The notes under the pieces: generated by a model
Seen by the model: the letters and a program-made list of their open reading frames with translations, nothing else
The model's database searches: none
What the model was told of the DNA's origin: nothing
Position numbers and translations under genes: made by a program
Shown: one piece after another, positions 1 to 39,895 of the stretch
Position numbering within the stretch: the first letter of the stretch is position 1
Layout: each line of letters opens with the position of its first letter
Source: Candidatus Methanoperedens sp.
GTDB taxonomy: Archaea > Halobacteriota > Methanosarcinia > Methanosarcinales > Methanoperedenaceae
Direction: 5' to 3'
Length of the DNA: 50,550 nucleotides
Assembly (NCBI GenBank): GCA_023249105.1
Contig: JAHFDG010000019.1
Coordinates: 8,923 to 59,472, forward strand

Positions 1-290
1 TCCTCGTCTTCATCTTCTTCGACAGCTTTAGAAGCCTTCTTCAAAGGCTTCTTAACGGGCTCGTCCTCGTCCTCGTCTTCATCTTCTTCGACAGCTTTAG
101 AAGCCTTCTTCAAAGGCTTCTTAACGGGCTCGTCCTCGTCCTCGTCTTCATCTTCTTCGACAGCTTTAGAAGCCTTCTTCAAAGGCTTCTTAACGGGCTC
201 GTCCACGTCTTCGTCTTCGTCTTCGCCCTCTTCGAAGGCTTTAGAAGCCTTCTTCAAACGCTTCGTGACGGGTTCGTCATCATAATCTTC
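1..290 (-). repeat. 69-bp tandem repeat coding a 23-residue acidic/basic repeat
   Basis: Near-identical 69-bp units begin at positions 1, 70 and 139. A diverged copy starts at about 208, followed by a partial one to about 290. The unit length is a multiple of three and the array stays in frame with the single-strand binding protein on the minus strand. Each unit encodes one acidic stretch plus a KKPLKKASK-type basic stretch. The array reaches the window's left edge, so the copy number is unknown. Confidence 0.95.
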
Positions 291-1034
291 TTCATCAACA
301 TCAGCATCTCCGGGAGCCGGGCGCCTCGAATTCTTGCCTAGAAGCACACCTTCCATATATTCATTATCAAAGTAATTGAGAATATCAGGCACAGGATTGG
401 CTACCACAAAGTCCAACCACTTAGCCTGCTGTTCAGGAATTTCGCTGATAGGAGAAGGCTCTCGAGAAACTTCAACTGCAATATATTTGGTTTTAATGCC
501 TGCACCTTCACGAACGAAAGATACATCAAAACCTTCGTCAGGGTGATCAATCAAAATCACTTGGTCAGTCTTCTTATTCAAAGAACGATTAGCAATCTCC
601 TTATCAATGGTCCAAGGCAGCGCCCAAATACAAGGACCTTGCTTTTCATCTGCACGGTTAATGATCCACGCAACTAGGCGCTTGGAAGGCTTTAGCTGAG
701 AAGCTGAATCAGCATCACCTTCAACCGCAAGCTCATCGCGCATCTTGCAGATGACGCAATCTTCTCCTTTCATCTTCTTCAAACAAAGGTAAGAACTCTT
801 GTCCGGTCCAATACCATGGTGCAACCACACCTCAATGCCCCAATGGTTTCCGAATTGATCTAAGTCCCAAGTGGGAGGCATGATCCGATAAATATTTTCG
901 CCCTCTTTTGGTGTCACAATAGTGACCCTAGAATCAACGTAAGAATCATAAGCACCGCCAGACTGCTTAGCTCTAGCAGAAACACCTTCTGCTGTGCGAC
1001 TTTTGTAAACAAACCTACCCTTAACTTTAGCCAT
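1..1034 (-). CDS. gp32-like single-stranded DNA-binding protein, 3' end cut by window
   Basis: This is probably the replicative single-strand binding protein that coats the phage fork. I translated it by hand from the ATG at 1034, whose A overlaps the upstream stop (TGATG). Residues 72/73 (HH), C84, C93 and C96 form an H-x10/11-C-x8-C-x2-C pattern. That is close to the H-x12-C-x9-C-x2-C zinc site of T4 gp32. The motif lies in the segment reading RIMPPTWDL then GEDCVICK. From about residue 250 the protein becomes low-complexity, alternating acidic runs (EEDEDEDEDE) with lysine-rich runs (KKPLKKASK) as 23-residue tandem repeats that continue past the window edge. T4-type proteins have an acidic C-tail for partner binding; the alternating basic blocks here are not typical. 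The gene is last in the visible replication operon. The zinc motif and context make the family call fairly firm, but the C-terminus is not seen. Confidence 0.75.
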   Translation of the reverse strand, partial: MAKVKGRFVYKSRTAEGVSARAKQSGGAYDSYVDSRVTIVTPKEGENIYRIMPPTWDLDQFGNHWGIEVWLHHGIGPDKSSYLCLKKMKGEDCVICKMRDELAVEGDADSASQLKPSKRLVAWIINRADEKQGPCIWALPWTIDKEIANRSLNKKTDQVILIDHPDEGFDVSFVREGAGIKTKYIAVEVSREPSPISEIPEQQAKWLDFVVANPVPDILNYFDNEYMEGVLLGKNSRRPAPGDADVDEEDYDDEPVTKRLKKASKAFEEGEDEDEDVDEPVKKPLKKASKAVEEDEDEDEDEPVKKPLKKASKAVEEDEDEDEDEPVKKPLKKASKAVEEDEDE

Positions 1035-2654: not shown

Positions 2655-5177
2655 TCACCATTTGTCTGAAGAAGCGACCAGCACTTCTTCCATTTCAGCC
2701 ATATTCTTACCTACAGAAACTTCAACCACCATAGGGCAATTGATGAAATCATACTCAAACGTAAGCATCTCCGTGACGATAATTTCTAAGCAGTAATCCA
2801 ACTTGGACTTAGGAATGATAAACGTGAGATCATCATGAATTTGAATATTAGGCTGTAAGGAAAATTCTTCTTTCTCAGACAATCGTGCCATGGCATCCAT
2901 CACTATCTCAGCAGCAGTTCCTTGTATGGGCGAATTCAATATTCTATTTCGTGAAAGAGGCGCACGTCGCCGCCGACCCGTCAGCGTTTCGCAATACCCA
3001 TTACGCCTATAAAACTGTATCATGGACGTCTGCCACGCCTCTAACCCAGGAAACTCCCTCCAGAACTGATCGATGCATAATTGCGTAATGTTTTCGGGAA
3101 CTCCTAAATACCCTGCCACGCTCGAAGTTGAAGCTCCAAATATTAAGGGAAACGTCCACTTGTTCTTGATGACTGTTCTAAAATCTTTCATCTTCTGCTT
3201 ATCTTCAAGACCTGATTTGCCTCCAACAACTTGAGGATATGTTAACGCAATTCTTCGAGCCCAATCGCCATGAATGTCAAATCCTTCCCAAAGTGCTCTG
3301 GTAAAGATCTTATCACGAGAAGCCATGGCTGCAACCCGAGCCTCTAGCTGCCCATAATCAGCGGCGACAATAACACAACCTTCGTCTGCAACCAGCTGTC
3401 GCCTGATTTCACGCCCAGCAACAGACCGCTTAGGAATATTTTGGACATTAGGACTTTCGGCGGACAAGCGTCCCGTTTCTGCATACACTGAATTGAACAC
3501 AGGGTGAATGCGATTGTCTTGATACACGTTTGCGTAAGGCTCTATATAAGTGGATATCAATTTCTGAGCCTTTCGATAGTTCAGCAACGCACCACAAAAC
3601 TCGCCCCCAATCTGCAATAAAGTGGTTTCATCTACAGAATAACCCGAACCTTTGTCTCGTCTACCTTCTGGACGCTTCAAAATATCTCTAAACAAAACTG
3701 TCAAATCATAATTAGACAAAGGATTAAAGGCTGATCTTTTGAGAGATTTAAATAGCTGAACCTCTTTAGAATTTTGAATAGAATTAATCGCTTGCTCTGA
3801 TTCTTTCACGTGCTTCTTGCGCAATTGGCGATTGACTTTCAAATCAATCAACAAACCCTTGATCTGGGATTTAACGAGTGCAGGAGTTCTCCTCACCGTT
3901 TCATTATAGACTTTGGTTAATTTTTCAGATTTTAATCTTGCACGCTGCTCTTTATAAAGCAGCGCGTGATACTTAGCGTCAATTCCATTGTACCTCAAGA
4001 CTTCAGAAATTTCACAATTCTCTAAGTCTTTTCTGTTGACTGCTGAGACTTGCTTAATGTTGAAACCAAAATACTGCTGGGTCAAAAAGGCTAAAGACAA
4101 AGGACCCTCTGCTCTTTTAATAACCCTTTCGTCTAACACAGCTGCTTGAACCATGGTGCAATCCCAGCGACCTGCAGAGAGAAGACTCCAATCATCATAT
4201 ATTTGAGCTGACCACTCCATTTCAAAAGCTAAATTATGTACAGCTTTTGAACCTTTACATTCTTTCAAGAAACTAATCCAAAGCTTGTCTAATTCTTTTC
4301 GATCCTTGCGAGACCACCCTGCTTGAGGATGATCAAAAGCGATAGCCATGCCCGAAGTCTCTGCCCACACACCCGCGCTGAGTATTTTTGAACCTTCATT
4401 GTAAGGGCGCAATCGGTTGGTCTCGTAATCAATTCCGACAACTTTCTGAGATTTAGCACTTTCAAAAAAAGCTCGAACCTTTTCAATCGCAGAAAATTCA
4501 TCGCCTTTAATTATGACAATGTCTTGACCTAATTTGGAAGTGTCATGCACAGAAGCAGGCAGACCTTCTTTCAAGTCAAAGAAAACCTTCTTAAAATCAA
4601 ACTGCAAAGCGCGTTGGTCTTCAGAACTGACGCCGGAGCCTCCTTGATAAAATTCACCCAACGTCAAAGGATCTAGCGTTGGATAGAACCAACAAACATG
4701 AGACTTAATTTTAACAGGAATACGACGCCCCCGCCACTCTGTGATCCCGACTTGACCCATCAACCAGGATAAAGGTTCGGCGCCTAAACCTATAATTGCG
4801 TAAGGTTTTGAAGCTTCAATATCTTTGGCTACGCTCGGCCTGCAGCACTCAATCTCGATTTGCTGAACCTTTCGACCTTTAGGAGGACGAGTTCTTACCA
4901 CATTATTAAACCTAACAAGGTTTTTATACTCTTTTGGAATGTTCTGATTTATAAAAGAAGCAACTGCTCCAGAAAAAGGCAAGCCTTTATGATCCGCAGA
5001 GCTGTCAGGCGCTGAACCCAAAATATAAACTAAAGGCGCTGCCGAACCTTGAGGAGCGATATGAGCGTTAACTGCAACACCCACCTTGTTTAAAGGACAA
5101 GCCTTGCACTCCATTTTATGAAGTAATGCTGTAGGCAACGCTTGTGCAGGCATTTTAGATGTGTTAAAAAATCCCAA
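2655..5177 (-). CDS. Family A DNA polymerase with N-terminal uracil-DNA-glycosylase-like domain
   Basis: Replicative polymerase of 840 residues in three parts. Residues about 20-200 resemble family 4/5 uracil-DNA glycosylases: CKACPL (24-29), GSAPDSSADHKGLPFSG (54-70), then a Y-P-T/L-D-P segment near 165. The exonuclease follows, with Exo I D250/E252 (GIDYE), Exo II HN314-315 with FE in place of the usual FD, and Exo III Y396-x3-D400. The polymerase has motif A (ADYGQLEAR, D607), motif B (R667 to about F680) and motif C (HDD, 781-783). A TTG at 5177 has GGAG upstream; the next ATG (5153) lacks a good site, so I keep the TTG. The cysteine spacing after C27 does not obviously complete the family's iron-sulphur cluster, so the UDG domain may be structural or may sense uracil rather than excise it. 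Confidence 0.9.
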   Translation of the reverse strand: MGFFNTSKMPAQALPTALLHKMECKACPLNKVGVAVNAHIAPQGSAAPLVYILGSAPDSSADHKGLPFSGAVASFINQNIPKEYKNLVRFNNVVRTRPPKGRKVQQIEIECCRPSVAKDIEASKPYAIIGLGAEPLSWLMGQVGITEWRGRRIPVKIKSHVCWFYPTLDPLTLGEFYQGGSGVSSEDQRALQFDFKKVFFDLKEGLPASVHDTSKLGQDIVIIKGDEFSAIEKVRAFFESAKSQKVVGIDYETNRLRPYNEGSKILSAGVWAETSGMAIAFDHPQAGWSRKDRKELDKLWISFLKECKGSKAVHNLAFEMEWSAQIYDDWSLLSAGRWDCTMVQAAVLDERVIKRAEGPLSLAFLTQQYFGFNIKQVSAVNRKDLENCEISEVLRYNGIDAKYHALLYKEQRARLKSEKLTKVYNETVRRTPALVKSQIKGLLIDLKVNRQLRKKHVKESEQAINSIQNSKEVQLFKSLKRSAFNPLSNYDLTVLFRDILKRPEGRRDKGSGYSVDETTLLQIGGEFCGALLNYRKAQKLISTYIEPYANVYQDNRIHPVFNSVYAETGRLSAESPNVQNIPKRSVAGREIRRQLVADEGCVIVAADYGQLEARVAAMASRDKIFTRALWEGFDIHGDWARRIALTYPQVVGGKSGLEDKQKMKDFRTVIKNKWTFPLIFGASTSSVAGYLGVPENITQLCIDQFWREFPGLEAWQTSMIQFYRRNGYCETLTGRRRRAPLSRNRILNSPIQGTAAEIVMDAMARLSEKEEFSLQPNIQIHDDLTFIIPKSKLDYCLEIIVTEMLTFEYDFINCPMVVEVSVGKNMAEMEEVLVASSDKW

Positions 5178-7807: not shown

Positions 7808-9223
7808 TTATTCTTCTCCCTCACCAAAGCTATTCTTCAATTGATCGAAATAGTTTGAATACATACGAGCGCTACTTAAAGCAAATTGCCCGGTGCCGTA
7901 ATGTTGTGAAATAATAACAGTGAACTTGTCCTCATCATTTCTCGACTTCTCAACATAAATACGCGCAAGCCCTTTCTCCTTTTCAAGCTTTGTTTGACTA
8001 TAAGTCAGCACTTGATCGGCAGTATTTAATTTAGAGATGTCTTCAGCTACATGAACTCCTGTAACCTTCCCTGATTCAATGCCCGCCCTATTTGCTTGTG
8101 TGGGCGCCAAAACTGCTAGATTTCTTTCAACGCCTAACCCTCGAAGTTCTTCAAATACACGCCCAACGCTAATTCGCTGATTAGCAGGATCTGTCCACAT
8201 CAAATCAGGATAATCAACGATCAATATATGAGGAATGAACTTATGTGAAACTTCAAGCATGTCCAAATAAGCACGTAATTGAGAGACAGTTAGCGACTTG
8301 GTGGGGAATTGTTTTACAACAATCCTGCCGAACCTTGTCCCCCAGTCACCTATCTTTTTTGAGAGCTTCAAAATAATGTCGGGTTGATCAAAAGTCAACA
8401 AAGGCTTTCGCGTCTTCTTGACGAAACCGCAAATACGCTCTAATTCGTCTAACTCAAATAAATATTGTTCTATTTTTTCGTCTCGTTTTGAAACTGCGAA
8501 CAAACTCTGATAATATCGCTGAACCGCGCGGTCTTCGCTCATTTCTAAAGTAATATGAACGACATTAGCGCGCTGGAGCAACGCCATTTTTGCAGCATGG
8601 ATGCAGAACCAGCTCTTGCCCGAACCTTTAGGTGCGATGAAGACCATCAACTCTTTAGGTGTGAGTCCTACATCTTTTCTGTCTAATTCAGGAATAGCGA
8701 GAGAGTAGGCTTGTGTTTGTTGATTTAAGAAGTTGAGACTCCTTGTACGGTCATTCAGAAATATTCCACTGTCAATCGACTGCACTTCGTTCTTGAGAGC
8801 GTCTAGAAATATCTTCTCAATGTCGGGGACAAGTCTGTCTCCCCCAAAGGAATACCTATCAGCTGCTGCAAGAACCGCTTGCTTAAGCTGCTGACCTCTA
8901 ACAAACTCCGAAACCCTAGAAAGTACGTAACTAGGATTAAGCGATTCTCCATTAACCAGAACGCCTTGGACGACTTGCGAATACAAAGGATATTCAGCGT
9001 GACTCGTGTCGCTAAGAACATCATCAAAGACATCATCAATGTGTGAGATTCCTGGAGCTTTGTTGTAGGTTTTTCGGTATGTTAGAACCTTCTGAACAAT
9101 TCCAGAATAGACTGTGTCAAAATAATCACTTTTGAGCAAGCCTGCAGCAATCTGACCCTCTTTGTCGTTAACGCAAAGAAGAGTCAAGATGCTCTCTTGG
9201 AGTGTAGTCGTTAACTTGTCCAA
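7808..9223 (-). CDS. DnaB-like replicative helicase
   Basis: Hexameric fork helicase of 471 residues. A helical N-terminal region (about 1-150) resembles the DnaB primase-interaction domain. The RecA-fold ATPase has Walker A APKGSGKS (197-204), the HITLEMSE segment typical of DnaB (223-230), Walker B ILIVDYPD (333-340) and the glutamine sensor APTQANR (373-379). No intein is visible. It lies in an operon with folE and queE on either side, while its presumed partner primase is on the opposite strand across the divergent region. Confidence 0.92.
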   Translation of the reverse strand: MDKLTTTLQESILTLLCVNDKEGQIAAGLLKSDYFDTVYSGIVQKVLTYRKTYNKAPGISHIDDVFDDVLSDTSHAEYPLYSQVVQGVLVNGESLNPSYVLSRVSEFVRGQQLKQAVLAAADRYSFGGDRLVPDIEKIFLDALKNEVQSIDSGIFLNDRTRSLNFLNQQTQAYSLAIPELDRKDVGLTPKELMVFIAPKGSGKSWFCIHAAKMALLQRANVVHITLEMSEDRAVQRYYQSLFAVSKRDEKIEQYLFELDELERICGFVKKTRKPLLTFDQPDIILKLSKKIGDWGTRFGRIVVKQFPTKSLTVSQLRAYLDMLEVSHKFIPHILIVDYPDLMWTDPANQRISVGRVFEELRGLGVERNLAVLAPTQANRAGIESGKVTGVHVAEDISKLNTADQVLTYSQTKLEKEKGLARIYVEKSRNDEDKFTVIISQHYGTGQFALSSARMYSNYFDQLKNSFGEGEE

Positions 9224-12486: not shown

Positions 12487-13017
12487 ATGGAATATCTCTC
12501 AACACGTGAAATAGGAATTGACATGGCGCATAGAGTGCCGCAGCACGGAAGTAAGTGCAACAAACTGCACGGCCATCGCTATAAAATTGAAGCTGTAATC
12601 AAAGGACCACTTGCGGATTCGGGAGAACAAACCGGAATGACCCTTGATTTTGGCTTTATCAAAGAAGGTATGATGGATCTAATTGACGCCTACTTTGACC
12701 ATGCTACAACATTACAGCAGAATGACCCTCTGGTTGAAATTTTAATGCGTTCAGGAGATTTTCATGTCTGTGATGACCATCCGTTAGTTACTAACCCACG
12801 CGGCCTTATTACGCTAGTAGAAGATTCCGGAAAGACTTCCGGCGTACCTGCTAAGCTCTGTTTGATAGAGAGTACACCCACAGCGGAAAACTTAGCAGCT
12901 CTCTGGTATTACAGGCTTTTGAGTTTTGTCAACCACCGTTCAGAAGGGCGAGCTCGTCTGCATCAAATAATTGTGTGGGAAACACCAAACTGCAAAAGCG
13001 CTTATCCTCATTTTTAA
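12487..13017 (+). CDS. queD: 6-carboxy-5,6,7,8-tetrahydropterin synthase
   Basis: Second pathway step, converting dihydroneopterin triphosphate to 6-carboxy-tetrahydropterin. The 176-residue protein has the family zinc histidines H15, H28 and H30 (KLHGHRY), catalytic C24 (GSKCNKLHGH) and the conserved segment TLDFGFIKE. The C-terminal glutamate motif occurs in IVWETPN. It is longer than E. coli QueD (about 121 residues) because of an internal insert around residues 85-125. It is separated from folE, queE and dpdA and lies on the opposite strand, so the pathway is split between the two divergent operons. Confidence 0.94.
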   Translation: MEYLSTREIGIDMAHRVPQHGSKCNKLHGHRYKIEAVIKGPLADSGEQTGMTLDFGFIKEGMMDLIDAYFDHATTLQQNDPLVEILMRSGDFHVCDDHPLVTNPRGLITLVEDSGKTSGVPAKLCLIESTPTAENLAALWYYRLLSFVNHRSEGRARLHQIIVWETPNCKSAYPHF

Positions 13018-13022
13018 TCAAC

Positions 13023-13060
13023 CTCTTGAATTATTCATTACGGCTATTATATTAATGGTG
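13023..13060 (+). promoter_or_regulatory. promoter copy 1 (34-bp repeated element)
   Basis: TTGAAT (13026-13031) and TATATT (13048-13053), spaced by 16 bp, form a sigma-70-like promoter. The 34 bp from 13023 to 13056 are identical to 15609-15642. Both copies lead into a gene whose ribosome-binding site reads CCAAGGAGA. Intergenic position and exact conservation make a promoter the best explanation. Confidence 0.75.
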
Positions 13061-13089
13061 TCACATCGACACAACCAAGGAGACAAGCA

Positions 13090-13638
13090 ATGACAACAAC
13101 AGCACAACCACACGAAACACTCCACCCTATACAAATAGAGCTGAGCAAGACGCTTGGTCGCAAAAAGAAGGATTTGGAGCCTTTTACTAAGGCGTCACAG
13201 TTCTTTAAGCTAGCAACTGACATCGATGATCTTTGTGAAAAGGATGACGATGTGTGGGAATCTCTGTCTGAAGCCGCGCAAATGTGGGTCAACAAAGCAT
13301 TGAACGCGCACGCTGCTAAGAAGGGTGTGCCTCTTTTTTCCGAAGAAATTGAGAAAAAAGTAACACCCGCAACAAAACAGAAGGAGGGAGGAGCACAAGC
13401 TGCTAGCAAGGAAGTTCTCAAAAAGCAAGCAGATCAAATCACCGCACCTGAACCTGTTCAATCAGGTAAAGGTTATAAAGGACACAAACCGGGTTCCAAA
13501 GCAGAATTAATGCGTAAGCTTTACGATCAGCATGATCAAGCAGCGGCGATAGCTAAAGCTGTTGAAGCTGGTATTAAAAAAACCTCAGCCCAAGTTTGGA
13601 TCTGGGAATTTAAAAAGAAAGATTCCGAGAATGCGTGA
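13090..13638 (+). CDS. hypothetical protein with helix-turn-helix-like C-terminus
   Basis: A 182-residue protein, lysine-rich, with a helical N-terminal domain, a disordered linker (about 95-135, rich in Q, K, A and E) and a short C-terminal domain. That domain (SKAELMRKLYDQHDQAAAIAKAVEAG) could be a small helix-turn-helix. It is the first gene after promoter copy 1 and is translationally coupled to the SNF2-like helicase (TGATG). I do not recognise a family. Confidence 0.65.
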   Translation: MTTTAQPHETLHPIQIELSKTLGRKKKDLEPFTKASQFFKLATDIDDLCEKDDDVWESLSEAAQMWVNKALNAHAAKKGVPLFSEEIEKKVTPATKQKEGGAQAASKEVLKKQADQITAPEPVQSGKGYKGHKPGSKAELMRKLYDQHDQAAAIAKAVEAGIKKTSAQVWIWEFKKKDSENA

Positions 13639-15565: not shown

Positions 15566-15608
15566 GCTGCATCCGTGGTAAAATTAATTTAGAGATCATC
15601 AAAATAAT

Positions 15609-15646
15609 CTCTTGAATTATTCATTACGGCTATTATATTAATAGTG
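15609..15646 (+). promoter_or_regulatory. promoter copy 2 (34-bp repeated element)
   Basis: The stretch from 15609 to 15642 is identical to 13023-13056, with the same TTGAAT and TATATT boxes (15612-15617 and 15634-15639). It drives the small zinc protein at 15678 and, by position, the hammerhead-containing small-gene operon. The ribosome-binding site downstream (CCAAGGAGA) is also shared with copy 1. Confidence 0.75.
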
Positions 15647-15677
15647 TAGACAAGAAACCAACCAAGGAGAAGATAAA

Positions 15678-15848
15678 ATGTCAAATGAAGTCGTCTTTTG
15701 CAGCCATTGTGAAGCTGAACTTTCGCTAAATGATAAGGATTGGTTTTACGAAGAGCATAACAATTCCGACCCTTGGGACGAAAATGTTTTCTGCTCTGAA
15801 GAATGCTGCTCTCAATTTCGGATTATTGACGCCAAAAAGAAGCACTAA
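15678..15848 (+). CDS. small zinc-ribbon-like protein
   Basis: A 56-residue protein starting MSNEVVFCSHCEAEL, with a second cysteine cluster FCSEECCSQF near the C-terminus. The two CxxC-type pairs suggest one zinc site, as in the MYM/FCS and treble-clef small proteins. It has a strong ribosome-binding site and promoter copy 2 just upstream. It is AT-rich like the backbone genes and ends 8 bp before hammerhead ribozyme 1. Confidence 0.7.
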   Translation: MSNEVVFCSHCEAELSLNDKDWFYEEHNNSDPWDENVFCSEECCSQFRIIDAKKKH

Positions 15849-15856
15849 GATCAAAA

Positions 15857-15912
15857 GCGAAACCGGCCTGAGAAGGCCGGTCCGCCAGTCTCGCAAGCTG
15901 GCGCTGATGAGC
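15857..15912 (+). ncRNA. type II hammerhead ribozyme, copy 1
   Basis: Predicted self-cleaving RNA; all conserved core bases are present. GAA (15859-15861) is followed by stem III, 7 bp including the A-U pair (15862-15868 with 15875-15881), then C17 at 15882 where cleavage would occur. Stem I is 6 bp (15883-15888 with 15898-15903) with a 9-nt loop, then the CUGAUGA core (15904-15910). Stem II is open-ended and only 2 bp (15911-15912 with 15857-15858). Loop UCGC (15891-15894) could pair with GCGA at 15915-15918 as a tertiary contact. It lies directly upstream of the ribosome-binding site of the 15940 gene. Confidence 0.87.
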
Positions 15913-15939
15913 AAGCGAAAACAGACAGGAGAAACAACA

Positions 15940-16191
15940 ATGGCGCGGACAAAGTACGGCTATCGTCACGCATTTTGCGGGATTGACCTGGGCGGGGAGC
16001 CTATAGAAGCAGTCTGGATCGAAGAAGCCCCCCAGATCGACGCACCTGAGCAAGATCCCGGATGGTGGGCGCAATGCGAAGTGGAACCGGATGCGGGCTG
16101 GATTGGCCCATTTACTACAGAGAACGAAGCGAGGCGTACCGCTACCGAGGAAAACGTATTTCAGAAGTGGGCATATGATTATTGCTGCTGA
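15940..16191 (+). CDS. hypothetical protein between two hammerhead ribozymes
   Basis: An 83-residue, acidic, tryptophan-rich protein (MARTKYGYRHAFCGIDLGG start). An open frame extends upstream, but it runs through the ribozyme; the ATG at 15940 follows an AGGAG site inside the conserved post-ribozyme leader and is clearly the start. I recognise no family. The gene is GC-richer than its upstream neighbours. Cleavage at both ribozymes would release it as a 344-nt monocistronic RNA (15883-16226). Confidence 0.72.
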   Translation: MARTKYGYRHAFCGIDLGGEPIEAVWIEEAPQIDAPEQDPGWWAQCEVEPDAGWIGPFTTENEARRTATEENVFQKWAYDYCC

Positions 16192-16203
16192 GGATACAGT
16201 AAA

Positions 16204-16256
16204 GCGAAACCGGCCCTAGGCCGGTCTGCGGACCTCGCAAATCCGCACTGATGAGC
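16204..16256 (+). ncRNA. type II hammerhead ribozyme, copy 2
   Basis: Same fold as copy 1 with compensatory changes. GAA is at 16206-16208 and stem III at 16209-16215/16219-16225 with a shorter 3-nt loop; cleavage would fall after C16226. Stem I is 16227-16232/16242-16247, with a sequence entirely different from copy 1 yet still fully paired. The CUGAUGA core is at 16248-16254 and stem II at 16255-16256/16204-16205. The loop of stem I keeps CTCGCAA. The 29 nt from the core to the ribosome-binding site are identical to copy 1. Confidence 0.87.
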
Positions 16257-16282
16257 AAGCGAAAACAGACAGGAGAGGAACA

Positions 16283-16690
16283 ATGAACCTACCCGATAAA
16301 CCATCCGAATTAATCCGTCTCGCGCTGAATGATCTGGCGCTATGCGCGGCTGATCCAAATTACAGCATCGAAATGTACGAATGGCATAAGCCGCGAGATG
16401 ATGGTGTGTGCCAGGTCTGCCTGGCCGGCGCTGTTATGGCGAAATCTCTCAATGCGCGGCCTACAGCCGAACTCTATCCACATCATTTTCCCGATCGTCA
16501 AAAGATAAAGGCTCTGGATGATTTTCACGATGGGTTGGTTTGCAGGGCGCTTGACCAGCTTGGGCAAGATTTATCAAAGTGGGGCCACGGAGCGCGCAAC
16601 AGGGAAATCACGCCTTACCGAACAGACTCCGTCGCATTCACGGCTGATATGCGCCAGTTAGCTGACGATCTTGAAGCGGCGGGGTATTGA
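16283..16690 (+). CDS. hypothetical protein downstream of hammerhead 2
   Basis: A 135-residue, mostly helical protein with a CQVCLAGAVMA segment (CxxC) near residue 43 and a C-terminal helix pair. I do not recognise the family. The ATG follows an AGGAGAGGA site in the ribozyme leader. It starts a run of small GC-rich genes coupled by overlaps. Confidence 0.65.
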   Translation: MNLPDKPSELIRLALNDLALCAADPNYSIEMYEWHKPRDDGVCQVCLAGAVMAKSLNARPTAELYPHHFPDRQKIKALDDFHDGLVCRALDQLGQDLSKWGHGARNREITPYRTDSVAFTADMRQLADDLEAAGY

Positions 16691-38007: not shown

Positions 38008-38913
38008 TCAAACAGGCTCCCTGACGGCAGTTGCACCTATGCTGAATGCTTTAAGTTCACCGGACTTGACTTGATTCCAAACTCCAGCATCATTAATACT
38101 GACACCGACTATCCAGCCTTCCTTTTCAGACTCAACCCCTAAGCTTTTCATCAAATCTCCAACCAGAGGGAATGAATGAATGACTTGCCCGATCGATCCG
38201 CCTTTGTGCATCGCTAAACTCATTCGCGCACTCTTCATAAATTCTGTTGATGCTTGTATGAGTTCTTCAGATTTTATGATGTCGCCTTGCGTGTCGATAA
38301 CATCGATGCCATTCTCTTTGATCACAGAAGCCCAACCATAAACCATTCGAGCTTCATCATCTAACTTGATGATATTAAAACTATTTGAATATTCTTCAGG
38401 TTTCACGACCTCAAGCTTCCTTATATTTGTATCAACCCAATCCTGATCGAACTCCTCAAACATTTCGGGACCAAGAATAATTTCTCCTGTAAAAGGTTCA
38501 ATATCATCTAGATCTATCTTTGTCGGTTCATAAGAGACAGTGATGTGTGGCTGGTACTCGTTAAAATCCCAAGAAGCTCCAAGCCTTAATGCTTCTTCAT
38601 TTCGCCATGACAGTTTAGAGCTACCAAACATTAACACTGGAGCTTTGTTGTCGCCTAAAGCACAAACGATCCTTGGACCACCTTCTGGAACTTTGAATTC
38701 TTCTTCGCTGTTCCATTCGTCAGCATTGCCTAGCTTCATCCAATCAATTGGAGCTTTACTTGCGACAATAGTCACATGCATCTTTTCTTCCGGGACGATA
38801 TTCTCAAAACCTTGGTCCTCAGCCCATGAGTGAATCTCAGCAGCATTGATCACTTTACGACTGACATAAAGGGATTTAGGATCTGTCTTTTTAATTTTTA
38901 CAGCTTGCTTCAT
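38008..38913 (-). CDS. 2H phosphoesterase-like domain fused to XkdF-like prohead protease
   Basis: A 301-residue protein with two domains. The N-terminal part (about 35-170) has HVT at 46-48 and HIT at 123-125, the pair of H-x-T motifs that define 2H phosphoesterases (the second reads EYQPHITVSYE). The C-terminal part (about 185-301) matches XkdF-type proteases: VYGWASVIKENG, IDTQGDII, MHKGGSIGQVIHSFPL, GWIVGVSINDAGVW and FSIGATA. I choose the ATG at 38913, preceded by GAGGAA, rather than longer starts. The 2H part could hydrolyse a cyclic nucleotide or RNA end. That fusion to a capsid protein makes it a possible anti-defence element is an inference. Confidence 0.8.
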   Translation of the reverse strand: MKQAVKIKKTDPKSLYVSRKVINAAEIHSWAEDQGFENIVPEEKMHVTIVASKAPIDWMKLGNADEWNSEEEFKVPEGGPRIVCALGDNKAPVLMFGSSKLSWRNEEALRLGASWDFNEYQPHITVSYEPTKIDLDDIEPFTGEIILGPEMFEEFDQDWVDTNIRKLEVVKPEEYSNSFNIIKLDDEARMVYGWASVIKENGIDVIDTQGDIIKSEELIQASTEFMKSARMSLAMHKGGSIGQVIHSFPLVGDLMKSLGVESEKEGWIVGVSINDAGVWNQVKSGELKAFSIGATAVREPV

Positions 38914-38929
38914 TTTGATTGTAAATTCC

Positions 38930-39895
38930 TCAAGCTGGAGGAGCAATGCTATTGCTGACAGTGCAACGGCAATTTGCAATTTCTTCGATGGGTGCAGCAG
39001 GATCACCAGGATACATCAAGTAATTTCCATCACCAGAAACAAAAGGCTCATTAAATCCGACCTCTTGGCCATTCATAACGGCATGGCTGTCTCTCGTACG
39101 AGCATCAACTGTAGAGTTCCAGATTCTTGTCAATCTCTCAACAGGTATCTCAAGGTCTTCAACTGACTGCGACAATGCCTCTTGCCTGGCCATGCTTGTA
39201 ACTTTCACACCTTCAGTCCTAGCTATTGTCTCTGCCCGGAACCTGATGTAGTTTAAGCGGTAGCGTTCAACCATTGTTTCTATCTGCTCAGGTGTCAAAC
39301 TTTGTCCGTCTGAAAACAATCTTGTGACCTTTGGGTCTGAACGGCGATCTCGTAAACCCCTTGATAAGGCATCCATACTGCCTTCATTCAAAGAGCGACG
39401 ATAATTATCAACTGCTTTGCTTTGGGCGCGAGTTAAGCCGATGCTACCCCTGAAAGTGTTCGCTATAGCCTTTGAGCCAAGCCCTTCAGCGTAACCATTC
39501 TGCAAAGCTTCTCTTGTCACAGACCTTTGCTCATTAGTGAACTGCCTTATGAAATTAAGCCTGTTGTTACGCATTAATTCGGCAGCACGCGGGTGTGTAG
39601 GATCCCAGCTAATAGCTGTGCCACCCACTCTTGAAGCCAGGTTTGCAGCTAGCGCAGCAACCTCAGCTTGCCCAACTGCATTAAAGGTTGCCGGCAGAAT
39701 AGAGCCCAACCTCACTACATGTGAATCAACAATCGACAATGCACCTTCTATGTCCCTTCTTTCCAGCAAGCTTCTTACTTGGGCCATTAATTTGTCATCG
39801 GTAACAGATGAAATAAATCCCATAAATGATCGTTTGATCGCAGCACTTTGAGAATCAATCAATCTTAAAATGCGACGTGTGTCTGCGCTAGGCAT
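38930..39895 (-). CDS. MuF-like head morphogenesis protein
   Basis: A 321-residue minor head protein. Helical N-terminal half with an ETIARTEGVKVTSMARQEAL segment, then IWNSTVDARTRDSHAVMNGQ and CRCTVS near the end: the standard MuF/SPP1 gp7 C-terminal motif. I choose the ATG at 39895 with an AAGGA site; a longer start at 39922 overlaps the previous gene further. It is usually packaged or sits at the portal. Confidence 0.88.
   Translation of the reverse strand: MPSADTRRILRLIDSQSAAIKRSFMGFISSVTDDKLMAQVRSLLERRDIEGALSIVDSHVVRLGSILPATFNAVGQAEVAALAANLASRVGGTAISWDPTHPRAAELMRNNRLNFIRQFTNEQRSVTREALQNGYAEGLGSKAIANTFRGSIGLTRAQSKAVDNYRRSLNEGSMDALSRGLRDRRSDPKVTRLFSDGQSLTPEQIETMVERYRLNYIRFRAETIARTEGVKVTSMARQEALSQSVEDLEIPVERLTRIWNSTVDARTRDSHAVMNGQEVGFNEPFVSGDGNYLMYPGDPAAPIEEIANCRCTVSNSIAPPA

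Follow-up and report, generated by a model that had tools for sequence, protein, structure and literature searches.

Two predicted type II hammerhead ribozymes bracket a small phage gene and may divide an operon transcript into single-gene messages

Introduction

What is the role of two self-cleaving ribozymes that flank a single small gene of a phage? This question is raised by a stretch of DNA of 50,550 nucleotides (hereafter the window), which covers positions 8923-59472 of a 62,101-bp contig. A preliminary description of this DNA had recognized a type II hammerhead on either side of an 83-residue gene, and had proposed that the pair processes an early operon or releases a discrete RNA that an RtcB-type ligase could circularize. 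Hammerheads flanking single prophage genes were described by Perreault et al. (2011), who showed cleavage, considered circles possible, and sought circular or spliced products without detecting any (PMC3088659). In that study, polycistronic fragments of ~2 kb self-cleaved in vitro, and the Agrobacterium array also did so in E. coli (PMC3088659). A 2017 review stated that hammerheads often flank open reading frames (ORFs) for small non-conserved proteins and left their role in phages as an open question (PMC6155905). We found no later work on phage hammerhead arrays in open papers, most subscription papers and preprints being beyond reach. To our knowledge, the phage lineage of the window had not previously been reported to carry type II hammerheads.

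Two type II hammerheads flank an 83-residue gene

A covariance-model search, which the preliminary description had recommended, matched the family RF02276 (Hammerhead_II, Rfam 15) twice in the window, at 15855-15920 (+; 47.3 bits, E 1.1e-6) and 16202-16264 (+; 41.7 bits, E 3.3e-5); both copies score above the curated gathering cut-off of 37 bits. No other RNA family was found at gathering thresholds in the window, or at E<=0.5 between 12.5 and 20.5 kb. A strict core-plus-stems scan of 707 kb of shuffled sequence returned 0 such motifs, so chance is not a credible source of the two copies. The features of the region are as follows:

15678-15848 (+): 56-aa ORF before ribozyme 1, Cys-rich, with ribosome-binding site (RBS) AAGGAGA; weak match to PHROG 21057 (E 7e-4)
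15857-15918 (+): type II hammerhead 1 (Rfam 47.3 bits, sequence, folds)
15857-15858 and 15911-15912 (+): stem II of hammerhead 1, G15857 C15858 with G15911 C15912 (sequence)
15859-15882 (+): GAA (15859-15861), stem III (15862-15881), and C17 (15882), with the predicted cut after it (sequence)
15883-15910 (+): stem I hairpin (15883-15903) and CUGAUGA (15904-15910) (sequence)
15891-15894 and 15915-15918 (+): predicted pseudoknot of hammerhead 1, UCGC with GCGA (sequence)
15883-16226 (+): predicted released RNA of 344 nt with 5'-OH and 2',3'-cyclic phosphate ends (inferred from the cut positions)
15927-15942 (+): RBS AGGAG and start codon (ATG 15940) of the bracketed gene (sequence)
15940-16191 (+): bracketed gene, 83 aa, acidic (translation)
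16204-16262 (+): type II hammerhead 2 (Rfam 41.7 bits, sequence)
16204-16205 and 16255-16256 (+): stem II of hammerhead 2, G16204 C16205 with G16255 C16256 (sequence)
16206-16226 (+): GAA (16206-16208), stem III (16209-16225), and C17 (16226), with the predicted cut after it (sequence)
16227-16254 (+): stem I hairpin (16227-16247) and CUGAUGA (16248-16254) (sequence)
16235-16238 and 16259-16262 (+): predicted pseudoknot of hammerhead 2, UCGC with GCGA (sequence)
16283-16690 (+): 135-aa gene after ribozyme 2, AGGAG upstream, ATG 16283 (sequence, homology)

Read directly at 15857-15912 and 16204-16256 and in the Rfam alignment, both copies hold the invariant core (GAA-A15.1, U16.1, C17 as H, and CUGAUGA), with stem II open and stems I and III closed. 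A stem II of two pairs is common in type II hammerheads. The preliminary description had placed the two ribozymes here, each just before a ribosome-binding site, and each does lie just upstream of AGGAG and an ATG (15940 and 16283). Its predicted cuts after C15882 and C16226, the resulting length of 344 nt, and the restriction of that RNA to the 83-aa ORF all agree with the sequence. The 83-aa gene is the only one with a ribozyme on both sides, but cutting would affect the 135-aa gene after ribozyme 2 equally. The 83-aa protein had no match in PHROG or Pfam, in a tblastn search of phages, or in genome contigs; its single viral match is weak and 30 residues long.

Pairing in stem I and between loop I and the tail is maintained

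Stem III and the 5' part of the core are nearly identical in the two copies, whereas stem I reads CGCCAG/CTGGCG in the first and TGCGGA/TCCGCA in the second. The stem I sequences had been said to differ completely yet to pair in both copies; the compensatory change is real and affects both sides of four of the six pairs, but the other two pairs are the same. Compensation at four of six pairs is good evidence of selection on pairing. Likewise, the 29 identical nt reported to follow the core exist, but they include CUGAUGA, and 22 identical nt follow it. Loop I (CTCGCAA) is kept in both copies, as had been noted, and its UCGC is complementary to GCGA in the 3' tail. This pairing, overlooked before, would form a pseudoknot and accounts for the conservation of the loop. 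A pseudoknot between loop I and the tail is usual for type II hammerheads.

With the flanks included and the pseudoknot excluded, unconstrained folding gives each copy a minimum-energy structure other than the active one (-30.0 vs -26.5 and -23.4 vs -19.9 kcal/mol). A preference of ~3.5 kcal/mol for non-native pairings, the pseudoknot not being counted, means that activity may depend on folding during transcription. We also considered stem III as an intrinsic terminator and rejected it, since the sole terminator-like site lies on the minus strand, at a frequency that does not exceed chance.

The contig resembles a tailed phage, and circularization is unsupported

The contig encodes a DNA polymerase, clamp loader, DnaB-like helicase, primase, SbcC/SbcD, QueC, QueD, tape measure, and major head protein, a gene content that is that of a tailed phage. 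The nearest named relatives of the major head protein are from Erythrobacter phages (52%), and IMG/VR relatives reach 61%. The assembly that holds the contig is archaeal by 16S rRNA signatures. Given an archaeal assembly and relatives among bacterial phages, the contig is probably mis-binned, or may come from a phage with an unexpected host. For the same reason, the finding of no ribozyme motif in 185 other genomes of the assembly's order says little.

The two ends of the 344-nt RNA (the stem II strand, GAA, stem III, and C17 of copy 2, and stem I and CUGAUGA of copy 1) are complementary in kind and can rebuild a ribozyme whose hybrid core is complete by sequence, a route to circles of the kind that Perreault et al. 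considered possible (PMC3088659). Excision followed by circularization, through RtcB or by back-ligation of the hammerhead, is nonetheless highly improbable in our view: the ends would be held by a stem II of only 2 bp, and both circles and splices went undetected in comparable arrays (PMC3088659). An RtcB is present in the assembly, but by 16S rRNA it belongs to the archaeon, which is probably not the host of the phage. It was set aside as the ligase, since in a contig that is mis-binned or has an unexpected host it is no argument for joining of the cleavage products. With relatives among bacterial phages and no circles in the 2011 study, the RtcB-type ligation put forward in the preliminary description is unsupported. 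A phage RNA ligase that rejoins the ends was likewise rejected, since the PHROG label 'RNA ligase' on 38008-39006 corresponds to an Acb1-like domain in Pfam. In this 332-aa ORF (window 38008-39006, -), a prohead protease domain of the phage S78 type is fused to the Acb1-like (anti-CBASS) domain (E 2.7e-39); such a combination of an anti-defence domain with a head-maturation protein is unusual.

Viral relatives sit between a stop codon and a ribosome-binding site

A pattern scan of IMG/VR gave at least 120 viral loci, from which at least 145 type II motifs were parsed. A stop codon lies within -12 to 150 nt of 132 of the 145 listed motifs, at a median of 3.5 nt before the motif, and a start codon preceded by a Shine-Dalgarno (SD) sequence follows within 150 nt in 117 of them (median 24 nt). 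Within narrower limits, the stop is found within -6 to +12 nt in 69% of the listed motifs vs 5% at random positions, and the SD-preceded start within 50 nt in 72% vs 17%. The 50 viral records behind the listed loci have Rfam matches in 42 cases and two or more in 18, and in each of these 18 all matches are on one strand. Fifteen array loci (148 kb), which were chosen by the type II pattern, hold only type II hammerheads and none of type I or III. At least four consecutive Watson-Crick pairs can form between loop I and tail in 38% of the 131 non-redundant listed relatives, compared with 18% when tails were shuffled (maximum 27%, 300 shuffles). The commonest subfamily combines loop GUGG with tail GCAGCC (46:0) and loop GUCG with tail GCAGCG (5:0; Fisher p 4e-7).

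The closeness of the ribozymes to the upstream stop places them within the footprint of a terminating ribosome, and loop I (NCUC) could pair with the RBS (GAGN) in all three copies of the contig (the third is described below); the minimum-energy folds of copies 1 and 2 use pairing of this type. Each ribozyme might thus be a tunable switch for the downstream gene, in which cleavage or refolding, perhaps sensing the terminating ribosome, sets access to the RBS instead of cutting constitutively. We consider this unlikely. Complementarity of loop I to the RBS is no commoner among the 131 listed relatives than in shuffles (20% vs 21%), which rules out loop I as a general anti-RBS element, and neither a ligand nor a switch element is apparent.

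One viral contig carries 24 hammerheads in a single operon

The largest array is on the minus strand of a 57-kb viral contig (L218; IMG/VR 3300017605_000570), where 24 type II hammerheads lie in one operon between 9,932 and 17,520. Exactly one small ORF is held by 22 of the 23 segments between ribozymes, and these ORFs begin 14-21 nt after one ribozyme and stop within -1 to +5 nt of the next. Over the 24 distinct copies, the pairs of stem I and the pseudoknot are 99.7% intact, and changes on both sides of a pair number 74, vs a mean of 20 in shuffles and at most 25 when the partners were slid. With gene gaps holding one ribozyme each so strictly, neither chance nor simple decay is a tenable explanation for the class. 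Other array records, among them L219, L024, L033, and L078, have 7 to 9 hammerheads.

The ribozyme and RBS may behave as a portable leader

A homolog of the 135-aa gene is present in another viral contig of 39 kb (L215), with 79% amino acid and 82.5% DNA identity over the gene, and further short genes downstream are common to both contigs at up to 93% DNA identity. No ribozyme lies ahead of the L215 homolog, and RF02276 has no match anywhere in that record. The DNA homology starts 4 nt upstream of the ATG of the 135-aa gene. A homolog that lacks the ribozyme, and homology that ends 4 nt before the start codon, suggest that the ribozyme and RBS behave as a portable leader. In the window, ribozyme 1 marks a rise in GC content from about 40% to 56%. 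Most simply, small genes would have arrived as a foreign block and become attached to ribozyme-RBS leaders already resident, a direction and timing that are tentative. None of the close relatives examined keeps the ribozymes of the window, so conservation of this particular pair cannot be shown. The preliminary description had proposed a search of related phages for the shared leader; the exact loop-to-tail string of the window copies had no match in IMG/VR, and the region had no close DNA relatives in annotated phages.

A third motif lies outside the window, at contig 3848-3910 (-), and scores 35.1 bits, below the RF02276 cut-off. It has the same loop and tail as copies 1 and 2, keeps UCGC/GCGA and an intact core, and has one A.G mismatch in stem I, so not all copies on the contig need be active. 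It is directly upstream of the RBS of a DUF932 gene; no ribozymes were found near DUF932 homologs in 80 loci or in the records of 20 relatives. Self-blast of the contig shows the three ribozyme copies as repeats with 79-93% identity among them, and a second element is also repeated:

15580-15670 (+): repeated promoter-plus-RBS element, with TTGAAT-16-TATATT at 15612-15639 (contig self-blast, alignment, promoter scan)
Window 13020-13094 (+) and contig 4133-4223 (-): other copies of the promoter-plus-RBS element (contig self-blast, alignment)

These copies are 98.9% identical over 91 nt and 86-88% identical over 65-76 nt (contig self-blast). The near-identical element is used three times, in both orientations, ahead of different genes. 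In the promoter scan, the promoter-like sequence has 9/12 matches, a score that chance gives about once per region. The same 91-nt element (98.9%) opens both ribozyme-bearing operons and is followed by a differing small ORF and then a ribozyme. The recurrence of promoter-RBS and ribozyme-RBS units around unrelated genes indicates that the phage uses two repeated building blocks. The earlier naming of the operon as early is plausible and goes no further than that; its genes follow a promoter-like sequence of which the contig has three copies.

Such repeats, 79-93% identical and located at the edge of a gene block that is horizontally shared and shifted in GC, could also be remnants of duplicated leader cassettes, that is, recombination joints for gene swapping that have little effect on RNA today, and the stem mismatch in copy 3 would fit with decay of this kind. 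This explanation is quite improbable in our judgement: four pairs of stem I are compensated, all three copies keep an intact core, and covariation is strong among relatives, none of which would be required of a simple recombination joint.

Proposed processing of the operon transcript

We favor, as a fairly likely reading, that the two cis-acting type II hammerheads cut the phage operon transcript co-transcriptionally into monocistronic mRNAs with stabilized ends, and that ribozyme and RBS together form a portable leader. As RNA polymerase passes, each ribozyme would fold and cut after C17, converting a polycistronic transcript into single-gene mRNAs; the upstream message would carry stem III and a 2',3'-cyclic phosphate at its 3' end, and stem I with a 5'-OH would open the downstream message ahead of the RBS. 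Cutting would decouple and stabilize the neighboring small genes, and the leader could be placed before newly acquired ones. Ends with 5'-OH are poor substrates for RNase E that depends on a 5'-monophosphate, and 3'-exonucleases act poorly on a hairpin that bears a cyclic phosphate. Cutting is thus predicted to separate and stabilize the messages, not to destroy them, a stabilizing role that we infer from general enzymology. The type II permutation makes both new ends at each cut hairpins (stem III upstream, stem I downstream); of the three permutations it is the only one that leaves a closed hairpin on both, a point that we did not find stated in the literature on such arrays.

Processing of the transcript is supported by the Rfam scores, the compensation in stem I with complementarity of loop and tail, the geometry of relatives, the array of 24, published cleavage, and the GC step with the homology border. 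Counted against it are the non-native minimum-energy folds (co-transcriptional misfolding is possible), the mismatch in the third copy, and the fact that no close relative keeps the pair. The operon processing advanced in the preliminary description is therefore well supported by anatomy, many relatives, and published cleavage. Tentatively, and as a possibility of wider reach, type II hammerheads might be a general phage device of 'one gene, one mRNA', a portable stop-to-start leader set before newly acquired small genes, up to 24 per operon, with type II preferred for its two-hairpin ends; the window pair might then be a small instance soon after acquisition of a gene block. The tight stop-ribozyme-RBS-start geometry, the 24-ribozyme operon, and the ribozyme-free homolog turn the suggestion that such elements perhaps process mRNA into direct tests.

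Comparison with known systems

The window copies resemble type II hammerheads (RF02276; PMC3088659) in core, permutation, 2-bp stem II, loop I-tail pseudoknot, phage location, and clustering around single genes, but differ from the common form of the family (GUGG/GCC) in having loop I CUCGCAA and tail AAGCGA. With two co-directional members between genes of one phage operon, the pair fits the clustered phage hammerheads of Perreault et al. (2011), which have at least two. Like the triple hammerhead that flanks ardA in an Agrobacterium tumefaciens prophage (PMC3088659), it brackets a single small gene of a phage operon; unlike that array, for which cleavage was shown in vitro and in E. coli, it is known from its sequence, and it involves other genes, with a bracketed 83-aa protein that has no known family. 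Retrozymes and viroid-like circular RNAs also have two hammerheads, of type I or III, that define a unit-length RNA, and they yield non-coding circles, whereas the window pair is type II, its unit is coding, and there is no sign of circles or RNA mobility. A paired arrangement around a phage gene is thus already known; features that may be new are the number of copies, up to 24 in one operon, the stop-to-start geometry as measured here, and the existence of a homolog with and without a ribozyme.

Other features of the contig

A QueD-like gene is found at window 12487-13017 and a QueC-like gene at contig 2036-2782, which suggests that the phage DNA may carry a 7-deazaguanine modification. Tandem internal repeats of 80-300 nt with 84-89% identity occur inside a phage ORF at window 1-300 (contig 8833-9218).
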